Shown here one piece after another: positions 10,014-26,548 of a stretch of 64,000 bases of DNA. The stretch spans positions 1-64,000 of the forward strand of contig JANTGM010000021.1 of the NCBI GenBank assembly GCA_024762925.1, given 5' to 3'. This DNA is from Kofleriaceae bacterium (GTDB lineage Bacteria > Myxococcota_A > Polyangia > Haliangiales > Haliangiaceae). Positions within the stretch are counted from its first letter, which is position 1. Each line of letters starts with the position of its first letter. Under the pieces are notes generated by a model that worked only from the letters and a program-made list of their open reading frames with translations, was not told where the DNA came from and did no database searches. A program made the position numbers and the translations under genes.

Positions 10014-10030
10014 GGTCTGAGCGCCTTTTC

Positions 10031-10804
10031 GTGGACGATCGCAAGCGCACGGAACGCGAGTGCTACCTTGCGCTCAATGAGGCGAGTTGGGACAAGGTTG
10101 CCCACACCACCAAGGGACGCACCGCCCTGCCGCACTATGGCCCGCTCTGTGCCGACGAAAATGCGCTTGGGCTCCTTGGGGATGTTCGAGGAAAACGCAT
10201 TGTCGAGCTAGGATGTGGCGACGGCAAGTCGCTGCTCTATCTGCACCAACGAGGGGCAGCCGAGGTCTGCGGTCTCGACCTCGCCGGGGAGCAAATCACA
10301 AATGCGAGGGCGCTTTGTGACACACACGGTGTACCAGCCAGCTTGTTCCACGCTCCTATGGAAGACAATCCCGGTATTGCCCTGGGCCACTACGACATTG
10401 CCCTTTCGCTCTACGCGCTTGGATGGTCCGTGGACCTGGATGCATCACTCGACCGCATTGCCAGCTATCTTCGGCCCGGTGGCATGCTCGTCTTTAGCTG
10501 GGAGCACCCAATGTTCCGATGCCTAAAAAGCCGGGGCAAAGAACTGGTCATGCAGCACTCTTACAGCGACGAAGGCCCAATTGAGAGCATGTCTTGGAAT
10601 GGCGCCCCCATCGTAATGCACGCAAGAAAACTCAGTACATTTCTTAACTCGATCATTGTGGCTGGACTGCGGATCGAACAGGTGATCGAGGCCGACCTTT
10701 GCGAGAGCGAGACGGGCTTGCGCGACTACCCGCGACGTTGGTACAGCAAAGATAGAGCCAAGCTCATGCCAACCACTATCATCGTAAAAGCACGCAAGCC
10801 GTGA
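10031..10804 (+). CDS. Class I SAM-dependent methyltransferase
   Basis: 257 aa from a GTG start. Motif I is IVELGCGDGKSLLYL (about residues 56-70), followed by the acidic residue in VCGLDLAGEQI and a post-motif PGGMLVFSWEHP. The fold is that of small-molecule or RNA methyltransferases; the substrate cannot be predicted from the motifs. Its TGA overlaps the GTG start of the Tgt fusion gene (GTGA at 10801-10804), so the two are probably translationally coupled and may act in one pathway, perhaps tRNA modification. Confidence 0.88.
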   Translation: MDDRKRTERECYLALNEASWDKVAHTTKGRTALPHYGPLCADENALGLLGDVRGKRIVELGCGDGKSLLYLHQRGAAEVCGLDLAGEQITNARALCDTHGVPASLFHAPMEDNPGIALGHYDIALSLYALGWSVDLDASLDRIASYLRPGGMLVFSWEHPMFRCLKSRGKELVMQHSYSDEGPIESMSWNGAPIVMHARKLSTFLNSIIVAGLRIEQVIEADLCESETGLRDYPRRWYSKDRAKLMPTTIIVKARKP

Positions 10805-23050: not shown

Positions 23051-24067
23051 CTAGAATCGCCAGGCAGCAGCTGCTCGCAGCAGGCTTCGTGCGGAAAGCG
23101 CACTGGCTGGGGCCGATATCCGGGTTGCCTCGACTGCAAGCTCAACAATAAGCTGCACGTTTGGATTCACGTCGAATGACAGACCGAGACGCGCGCCCAG
23201 GAAGACACCCGACGAACCTAATTCGTCATCAGAAAAACGCTTAGCCCATCCAACGGGCAACTGCAGATAGAATTCTCCGACCCCCGCATGCATTGGCACA
23301 TGGGCCTGGGCAAGCAGCGCTGCTCGAAGTTCCGCGTCTGGCAGCGCGAGTCCACCAACTTCGGCGCCAAAGCCAAGATGGTTGCCAAGCGTGCGCAGCG
23401 CCCGAATCGAGAGGTCGGTGGCAAAGCCCGCGTTTTCGTCAAGTGTGTGCCCGCCAAGCCCGAGATTCGCAGAGATACGATTGGGCCGGGCAAATCCACG
23501 AGGTTTGGTCATAGAACTCGAATCATGACCAAGCATTGCATCTAGGTGGCCAAGGAGTTCGGGCACGTAAATGCGATCATTCTTCGCATCGCCAATCCTG
23601 CGCAAGTACACCGAACCGTCCGGACGCAAGATGTACATGGATGGCAAAGGATATCCATCGCTGGACACTCCTGCCCACTGTTTTGCGAGCGCGAGTTCCT
23701 TGTCTTCAAGAAGCGAGAACGCAATTCCATATCGCTCAGCCATCTCTCGTGCCTTTGCAGGCTTGTCCGGGCTAATTGCGACAATCGTGGCGCCCCGTGC
23801 GTTGATGGCTTTGCGTTCATGTGCCAACTCGCCGAGCTGACGTTTGCACCATGGTCACCAGTGTCCGCGGTAGAAAATCACAACCACAGGGCCTTTTGCC
23901 AGCGCGGCGTCTAGGGAAAACTCTGTTCCCCGATGATCAACACCTGAGATCTCGGGCATGCGGCCAGGAGCAGGCTGAGTTGCCGTGTTGCGCACGTTGA
24001 GAGCAGCGGGGCTCGCACAGCCAACAACGAGACTCACGCACACAGCAATCAAGAATGCTCGCTTCAC
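23051..24067 (-). CDS. Selenocysteine-containing peroxiredoxin-like lipoprotein (TGA read-through)
   Basis: 338 aa if the in-frame TGA at 23855-23857 is read as selenocysteine (U71). GTG start. Residues 1-18 are a lipoprotein signal ending LVVGC. Residues about 40-175 form a peroxiredoxin/thioredoxin-like domain: GPVVVIFYRGHW-U-PWCKRQLGEL, then ATIVAISPDKPAKA, then the cis-Pro region LPSMYILRPDGSV. Family members have WCPxC here, so TGA replaces the first, catalytic Cys and gives U71-x-x-C74. Both sides of the TGA are in one frame and fully conserved in pattern. Residues about 185-338 are beta-rich and end in WRF like an outer-membrane barrel. It should reduce peroxides at the periplasmic surface. 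The alternative is a nonsense-mutated pseudogene. Confidence 0.85.
23823..23841 (-). promoter_or_regulatory. Candidate bacterial SECIS stem-loop
   Basis: Downstream of the TGA on the coding strand, GTCAGCTC pairs with GAGTTGGC (eight pairs, two of them G-U) around a three-base GGC loop at 23831-23833. The loop begins with G and lies 21 bases after the TGA. These agree with the published bacterial SECIS rules of a small apical loop with G in its first two positions, 16-37 bases from the UGA. It would be bound by SelB during translation. Confidence 0.65.
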
Positions 24068-24216
24068 ACCACGAGACTGACAAATGCCCCGAGTTGAGGC
24101 AAGTACCCAGCTAGCCCGCGCTCACTCGCATCCGCTCTCACCTTTTCACGTCTCGAGTTCGGCGCCCTCGTTCCGGTAGCCAACGACATTGACAGCGGTG
24201 CCGTGAACGAGGTGTG

Positions 24217-25203
24217 ATGCATGGGATGTTTGATCAACACTGCGCGGTTGCCCTGAAAGCCACCGAAAGCGCCGCCAAGCTCTGTCAACGGGTGCAACGA
24301 AGCGTCACAGCAGAGGCTCTTGAGAAACGTGACAAGAGCCCTGTGACCATCGCCGACTTCGGAAGCCAAGCCATCATCGCCCTGGCTCTCCGCGAAGCGT
24401 TTCCCGATATTCCCCTTATCGCGGAAGAAGACTCTGCCGCGCTTCGCGATGAGAAGAACGCCACACTGCGTGATCGAGTCGTTGAGGAAGTTGCGCTGGT
24501 GCTTGATCGCCCGAACTTGGGGGCCGATGCAGTCTTGGAATGGATCGACCATGGAAGCGCAAGTTCGTACTCAGAACGTTTCTGGACACTCGATCCAATC
24601 GACGGCACAAAAGGGTTTCTCCGCGGAGAGCAATATGCGATTGCCCTTGCACTGGTCGAAAAGGGCGAGCCGGTGCTCGCAACGCTGGGTTGCCCAAACC
24701 TTGTAAATCCCGACAGCTCTGTGGGGGCAATTTTTTCCGCGCAAAATGGCAAGACCCGCTCTCACGGCCAAGGAGGATCCAGCACTGTAGTGCGAGTGAG
24801 CCCTGAAGAGGACCTTTCTGCAAGTCGCTTTTGCGAGTCGGTGGAGAGTGCGCACAGTGATCACAGCCAGAGCAAGGCGATTGCCCAATTACTCGGAATT
24901 GGTGGGGAATCTGTTCGAATGGACTCGCAAGCCAAGTATGCCGCAGTCGCTCGAGGTGATGCGGAGATCTACCTGCGCCTGCCAACTCGACCAGGCTATG
25001 TCGAGCGCATCTGGGACCACGCTGCTGGCTATGCGATTCTCAAGGGCGCAGGGGGAAGAATCACCGATGTGGACGGTATGGAGTTGGACTTTCGTCACGG
25101 CCGCGGTCTAGAGCAGAATCGCGGGATCGTAGCTTCCAACGGCATTCACCACGACCGCCTCATCGAAGCGATTGCCGAGACCCGCGAAGCTGAGACCCGC
25201 TAA
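24217..25203 (+). CDS. 3'(2'),5'-bisphosphate nucleotidase / inositol-phosphatase family
   Basis: 328 aa from the ATG at 24217, preceded by GAGG. Metal-binding motifs of the Li-sensitive phosphatase family are present: IAEEDSA (about residues 70-76), WTLDPIDGTKGFLRG (about 127-141) and ERIWDHAAGYAI. The GTKGFLR form is typical of HAL2/CysQ-like enzymes that hydrolyse PAP to AMP in sulfur assimilation, rather than of inositol monophosphatase (GTxNF). Length fits HAL2 better than CysQ. Stand-alone gene, divergent from the selenoprotein gene. Confidence 0.88.
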   Translation: MHGMFDQHCAVALKATESAAKLCQRVQRSVTAEALEKRDKSPVTIADFGSQAIIALALREAFPDIPLIAEEDSAALRDEKNATLRDRVVEEVALVLDRPNLGADAVLEWIDHGSASSYSERFWTLDPIDGTKGFLRGEQYAIALALVEKGEPVLATLGCPNLVNPDSSVGAIFSAQNGKTRSHGQGGSSTVVRVSPEEDLSASRFCESVESAHSDHSQSKAIAQLLGIGGESVRMDSQAKYAAVARGDAEIYLRLPTRPGYVERIWDHAAGYAILKGAGGRITDVDGMELDFRHGRGLEQNRGIVASNGIHHDRLIEAIAETREAETR

Positions 25204-25228: not shown

Positions 25229-26548
25229 CTAAGCTGGGTCAAGCACGTAGTTTGCGACCAAGTCTTGGATTTCGAGCGTATCGGGATCTTGTGACTCTGC
25301 AGTTGGCGGGTCGGTTGGTATCACGGCCTGCATTCGACGTGTTGGAACCGCAAACTCACTGCTGCCTACCGCCAAGGCTGGTGATTCTGCTGCCTCTAGG
25401 GATTCTTCTGACTGGGCTGTATTGGCCCGATGCCTCTCACCTGCATCGAAAATTGGATCAACCGTTGTTCGCACTCCCTCGTGAAACCGTCGTACCCCTG
25501 GAATCTTCATGGGTGATGTGGGCATGGTGAGAGAAGACATGAAAACCGATGGGGCAGGTGGAGTGGGCCCTGAAGCTAAGTTCGAGACATCTCGAGATCG
25601 TGCAACTTGCCCAACGTTCCCCGAGCTGAGTTCTTTCATCCATTCCCGCAAGGCCCGAGGCGAAGCAGAAGCTCCCTCTGATTCCAACAAAGGTTCCAAG
25701 GCAGTGAGCATGTCGCGCGCTGAGGCCCAGCGCTGATCGGGCTCTTCTGCAAGGGCCACTGCGATGAGCTGGTCCAAGGCCTTTGGCACAGTGGAATTCT
25801 TGGATGAGGGGGGCGTGCGTTCGTGATTGCGCGCCCGAAGTGCGAGCTGCTCTCGTTCGCTACCGCGAAACAAGCGTCGTGCTGTGAGCAACTCCCAACC
25901 GAGAACCGCAAGAGAATAGAGGTCCGAGCGACTGTCGATCTCACGACCTGCCAGTGCCTCAGGCGACATGTATCCGAGCTTGCCCTTGATCCTGCCGCTG
26001 TTGGTCGCGTATCGCCCTCGAAGGGACTTGGCGACACCGAAATCGATGATCTTTACTTCACCGCGGCGGTTGACGATGATGTTCGAGGGTGAGAGGTCCC
26101 GATGCACGATATTGAAGGGCTCGCCCTGCTCGTCCAGACCACACATCGCATAGTCCAAGGCACACAGAATTTCTCTTAGAATCCACAGGCTCACCCCTAT
26201 TGGTGCTGGGCGGTCTGCTTCGTTTGCCTGACGGAGCAGCTCTAGGACGGAGGGCCCATCGATCTCCTCCATCGTCAGATAGTGAACTCCATCCACTTCA
26301 CCAAACTCGAGCACAAATGCCATGTTTGGATGAGCGAGTGACCTGGCGATATCCGCCTCGCGCTTGAACTGCCGAATTAGCATTGCGTCCTTGGCCATCT
26401 GGGGGAGCAATCTTTTTAGCGCTACCCGCTCACCGGTTTCGCGGTGAATGGCTCGGTGCACCGTTGCCATCCCGCCAACACCCAGGCGCTCCTGCAGACG
26501 ATATGGACCGAAGTCCTCCTGTTGCCAGGTTGAGTTTGAGTCGGGCAT
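25229..26548 (-). CDS. Soluble Hanks-type Ser/Thr protein kinase
   Basis: 439 aa. The kinase domain (about residues 13-275) is complete: Gly loop GVGGMATV, catalytic Lys45 in VALKRL, Glu in the C helix, HRDLSPSNIIV with Asp151 and Asn156, DFGVAK with Asp169, and GYMSPEAL. No membrane helix follows; the C-terminal 165 residues are Ser/Thr/Pro-rich and probably disordered. Myxococcota carry many such cytosolic kinases controlling development and metabolism. The substrate is unknown; no FHA or phosphatase gene is adjacent. Confidence 0.93.
   Translation of the reverse strand: MPDSNSTWQQEDFGPYRLQERLGVGGMATVHRAIHRETGERVALKRLLPQMAKDAMLIRQFKREADIARSLAHPNMAFVLEFGEVDGVHYLTMEEIDGPSVLELLRQANEADRPAPIGVSLWILREILCALDYAMCGLDEQGEPFNIVHRDLSPSNIIVNRRGEVKIIDFGVAKSLRGRYATNSGRIKGKLGYMSPEALAGREIDSRSDLYSLAVLGWELLTARRLFRGSEREQLALRARNHERTPPSSKNSTVPKALDQLIAVALAEEPDQRWASARDMLTALEPLLESEGASASPRALREWMKELSSGNVGQVARSRDVSNLASGPTPPAPSVFMSSLTMPTSPMKIPGVRRFHEGVRTTVDPIFDAGERHRANTAQSEESLEAAESPALAVGSSEFAVPTRRMQAVIPTDPPTAESQDPDTLEIQDLVANYVLDPA

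Follow-up and report, generated by a model that had tools for sequence, protein, structure and literature searches.

A candidate selenoprotein of Myxococcota that joins a redoxin domain to a predicted outer-membrane β-barrel

RESULTS

A single TGA interrupts a redoxin reading frame at its active site

The locus lies on the minus strand of a 64-kb stretch of DNA (the window), and the host assembly, from an uncultured myxobacterium, comprises 6.8 Mb at 98% completeness. Two in-phase open frames, 23855-24067 (70 codons) and 23051-23827 (258 codons), are separated by a TGA at 23855-23857 followed by nine sense codons, a layout described in an earlier note made from the sequence alone and confirmed here by re-reading the sequence. 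Readthrough of the TGA yields a 338-residue protein, MKRAFLIAVCVSLVVGC...VVVIFYRGHWUPWCKRQLGEL..., carrying U71 and, as the note had claimed, a retained C74; the sole interruption of the frame falls exactly within FYRGHW-U-PWC. An interrupted frame alone is not rare, since the window has three TGAs with open frames on both sides that reach at least 70 and at least 200 codons; this locus stands above chance because its TGA sits exactly at the active site and recurs in dozens of homologs. The features of the locus are collected in Table 1.

TABLE 1 Features of the candidate selenoprotein locus (positions are those of the window)
Feature	Position	Strand	Details
Complete candidate selenoprotein frame	23051..24067	(-)	GTG start, 338 residues, TAG stop; nine relatives align over the full length
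Signal peptide with lipobox VVGC, predicted lipidated Cys17	24017..24067	(-)	G/A-Cys lipobox-like motif in ten homologs
AhpC/TSA redoxin domain, residues 37-162	23582..23959	(-)	Pfam PF00578; ResA and Bcp-type folds
TGA codon, proposed to be read as selenocysteine (U71)	23855..23857	(-)	TGA in 10/10 fused homologs, 39 loci overall; TGC/TGT in other homologs
Cys74, UxxC partner of U71	23846..23848	(-)	Invariant across fused-homolog alignment
SECIS-like hairpin	23823..23841	(-)	Stem up to 8 bp; GGC loop 23831-23833
Predicted eight-stranded β-barrel, residues 197-337	23057..23479	(-)	AlphaFold; Foldseek to NspA/OmpA/OmpX/OprG

The readthrough product matched PF00578 across the TGA (E 5.9e-23; 81.6 bits against a cut-off of 26), and an AlphaFold model of the whole protein (pLDDT 83) placed a redoxin fold at about residues 37-180. 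U71 aligned with the first Cys of ResA, in agreement with the earlier claim that the TGA falls on the catalytic Cys, and this alignment suggests that U71 is likely the nucleophile and that the protein may act as a thiol-disulfide reductase and not as a peroxidase. An AhpC/TSA match above the cut-off together with UPWC gives the protein the characteristics of a Prx-like UxxC protein. The motif of true peroxiredoxins, PxxxTxxC/U (TxxU/TxxC), is absent, as FYRGHWUPWC has U at the Thr position, and UxxC is a thioredoxin/ResA-type motif. The earlier description "peroxiredoxin-like" is therefore better read as redoxin-like.

The C-terminal part is predicted to form an eight-stranded outer-membrane barrel

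In the AlphaFold model of the whole protein, residues 197-337, on which the earlier note was silent, formed eight long strands, and the identical strands, of 11 to 16 residues, were obtained when the C-terminal part was modeled alone (pLDDT 87). The best Foldseek match in the PDB was NspA (E 9e-7, TM 0.71), followed by OmpA, Ail, OmpX, OprG, OmpW, and OprF, and the top matches were almost all eight-stranded outer-membrane barrels. The structure prediction thus combines membrane-length strands with a fold match to this class, and residues 197-337 are predicted to form such a barrel; these models and matches point to a lipobox-bearing, periplasm-facing selenoredoxin on an eight-stranded outer-membrane barrel. 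The Pfam OMP_b-brl match was marginal and below the cut-off for the window protein (15.1 bits against 28.7, E 0.027). When 379 Myxococcota genomes were searched with the barrel on its own, only members of the same family were recovered.

The TGA codon is conserved among homologs

The best matches in 56 related genomes have one TGA, at the identical codon, within active sites that read FYRGHW-U-PWC, FYRGFW-U-PWC, FYRGHW-U-LWC, and so on. A phylum-wide scan, with a motif restricted to TGA or Cys/Ser codons at this site, found 39 loci, spread over many genera, with TGA at the U71 position (ten genes encoding the redoxin-barrel fusion and about 29 further relatives), while many other homologs carried TGC or TGT, so that both selenocysteine (Sec) and Cys forms occur at position 71. 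The ten fused genes, namely the window gene and nine others, come from four genera of one Myxococcota family; their products share 27-42% identity with the window protein, and the alignment continues beyond the TGA. One of them (L021) runs off its contig near its end, and an eleventh relative (L079), which lies at the end of a contig as a C-terminal fragment, is outside the count. Sec was found in 10/10 fused members and a Cys version in none. The lipobox at the end of the signal peptide, pointed out previously and reading VVGC in the window protein, has lipobox-like counterparts in all ten, some of them atypical at the first position. The fused proteins are monophyletic (support 98/97) and nested in a larger tree of mixed Sec and Cys forms.

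Outside the all-Sec fused clade, Sec and Cys forms alternate repeatedly, with about ten label changes in the tree. Some genomes carry both a fused Sec gene and a second, unfused Prx-like paralog with Cys or Sec (G018, L055/L073; G010, L022/L078; G027, L027/L076).

A SECIS-like hairpin lies downstream of the TGA

The stem arms GUCAGCUC and GAGUUGGC pair over up to 8 bp around a GGC loop, 21 nt downstream of the UGA. In the bSECIS model of PMC13188914, bacterial SECIS elements have a loop of 3-9 nt with G in the first two positions, a stem of 4-16 bp, a spacing of 16-37 nt, and a minimum free energy of at most -7.5. The window hairpin, at -9.8 kcal/mol, lies within all of these limits, and folding bore out the earlier description of an apical stem-loop with a G-starting loop. 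The hairpin, CAGCUC-GGN-GAGCUG, stands at a constant distance from the UGA. Among 18 sequences, compensatory changes were seen at three stem pairs (C-G/G-C/U-G; G-C/A-U/G-U; C-G/U-A), where double-change cells numbered 8 and shuffles gave 2.7, and the covariation score was 0.194 and shuffles gave 0.082; the observed value of either statistic was attained in 0 of 500 shuffles.

Because the hairpin overlaps the peptide QLGEL, which is itself conserved, part of its conservation reflects coding, and a synonymous-codon null was applied. Sec genes were more stable than this null predicts (mean z -1.34), forming 5.5 of the 6 core pairs where 4.35 were expected, whereas GC-rich Cys genes were not (mean z -0.27; 3.92 core pairs, 3.89 expected). 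The effect on stability is modest per gene, and single genes, including the window gene (p 0.16), often fail to beat this null. An Rfam scan of the 64-kb window, with a library that may or may not include bacterial SECIS models, gave no match. Four Sec genes (L119, L163, L166, and L170) have a stable hairpin in a shifted register, such as CGCC-AGUUG-GGCG, in place of CAGCUC-GGN-GAGCUG, and the protein family possibly includes two SECIS forms.

The host genome encodes the selenocysteine machinery

All four components were found in the host genome: a tRNA-Sec with a UCA anticodon (67.6 bits against a cut-off of 47), selB (331.8 bits), selA (579.5 bits), and selD (373.7 bits). Together with the conserved TGA, the Sec and Cys homologs, and the hairpin, they support the reading of the codon as selenocysteine put forward in the earlier note. 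Every one of the ten genomes with a fused gene has tRNA-Sec, selA, or selB, singly or in combination. Two of the ten lack a tRNA-Sec above the cut-off, one being G011 (94% complete), which has selA and selB; with the exception of G011, components were missing mostly from incomplete assemblies.

The host selD has an in-frame TGA of its own, within HGGUAAK (L017:1501-2430, contig C125), making SelD itself a selenoprotein. PMC13188914 lists Sec-containing SelD with a UxxK motif, which the host motif fits.

DISCUSSION

The TGA could have arisen in a redoxin gene with Cys at this site, by nonsense mutation or through an error of sequencing, and the draft state of the compared assemblies, which lie in many contigs, as well as the other TGAs between open frames in the window, would suit a pseudogene. 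We rejected this explanation because the TGA is conserved across genera, at the identical codon in all 39 loci. In close pairs such as L022/L023, moreover, dN was below dS both 5' and 3' of the TGA, consistent with purifying selection past it, no further frame damage was found, and the machinery is complete; we hold a pseudogene to be extremely improbable. A variant code in which TGA specifies another amino acid, for example Trp, deserves no greater weight, as nothing was found in its favor. It was rejected on the presence of a UCA-anticodon tRNA-Sec, on the TGA stops that close 7 of 39 long frames in the window (not all of these being genes), and on the Cys found at the site in non-TGA homologs, within a scan that admitted only TGA or Cys/Ser codons.

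Decoding as selenocysteine could also be real and the C-terminal 140 residues be a soluble beta domain, leaving an enzyme that is merely lipid anchored in the periplasm. The lipobox-like motif in every fused homolog, the marginal OMP_b-brl match, and the absence of a terminal aromatic residue from most homologs are compatible with such a protein, but the number and length of the strands, the predominance of eight-stranded outer-membrane barrels among the top PDB matches, and the Phe that ends the window protein argue against it, and we consider it unlikely.

The reading that we prefer, and regard as very likely, is that the locus encodes one selenoprotein, an exported, periplasm-facing redoxin with an outer-membrane barrel. 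Computation supports the conserved active-site UGA, the hairpin, the decoding machinery, and the domain layout. Ribosomes would decode the UGA as selenocysteine, guided by the hairpin, SelB, and tRNA-Sec, and the product would be exported and probably lipidated at Cys17. Its fold would consist of a redoxin domain, with U-x-x-C at the active site, and, after it, an eight-stranded barrel inserted in the outer membrane. Both ends of eight-stranded outer-membrane barrels face the periplasm, and the redoxin domain would therefore hang on the periplasmic side of that membrane. There it may reduce disulfides, sulfenic acids, or peroxides, presumably cycling through a selenenylsulfide between U71 and C74 with the help of a putative electron donor. 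We give about even chances to the broader proposal of a selenoenzyme self-tethered to the outer membrane, in which Sec is apparently obligatory (10/10) and which possibly links redox chemistry to the membrane; if so, it might remove incoming peroxides or act as a sensor of redox conditions at the cell surface.

Catalogs have listed Prx-like UxxC selenoproteins of family PF00578 from 2005 at the latest (PMC1088965; PMC9312934; PMC13188914). These Prx-like UxxC/UxxU thiol:disulfide oxidoreductases resemble the window protein in domain family, UxxC motif, and a SECIS element within the coding region, but the catalog entries consulted mention no outer-membrane barrel, whereas the fused clade is lipobox bearing and restricted to one Myxococcota family. 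The model for SelL-related redox proteins (NCBIfam NF040769) scored all ten fused members (best E 5.6e-18); at 38.4 bits against a cut-off of 120, the window protein is not a member by this model. ResA/TlpA/DsbE thiol-disulfide oxidoreductases match it in the position of W-C-P-x-C and in fold, but the window protein has Sec for Cys and a C-terminal barrel and scores below the NCBIfam cut-offs. Sec in annotated outer-membrane barrels is catalogued for the GSU2204-type MtrB/PioB barrel and the FCYXU type of TonB-dependent receptor (PMC13188914); these entries name other barrel families and no redoxin domain. OmpA, NspA, and OmpX share the predicted fold of residues 197-337 at about 11-17% identity, but in the window protein the barrel comes after an enzyme domain. 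Within the limited, open-licence literature searched, no earlier description of a redoxin-barrel fusion and nothing relevant on redoxin-barrel or Myxococcota selenoproteins was found, so what appears to be new is the fusion of a Sec redoxin to an outer-membrane barrel.

The selenoproteome would thereby extend to a fused outer-membrane architecture in a phylum hardly mentioned for selenoproteins in the searchable literature. A Sec enzyme that needs export and outer-membrane insertion raises the testable question of why selenium is retained there. Since gene finders would cut the gene at the UGA and catalogs would show two fragments, the enzyme and its barrel domain remain hidden in gene catalogs.

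No neighbor common to the fused genes hinted at a partner; neighbors were shared only within a genus or between closest relatives. Two genomes, G018 and G048, each have two equal-scoring tRNA-Sec matches, 7 kb apart in the former (C163:3030-3125 and 10027-10122) and on contigs C56 and C261 in the latter. Beside the window gene, a divergent upstream frame (24214-25203, plus strand) and the next frame (25229-26548, minus strand), which is serine/threonine kinase-like by sequence, are both kept in a relative of the same genus.
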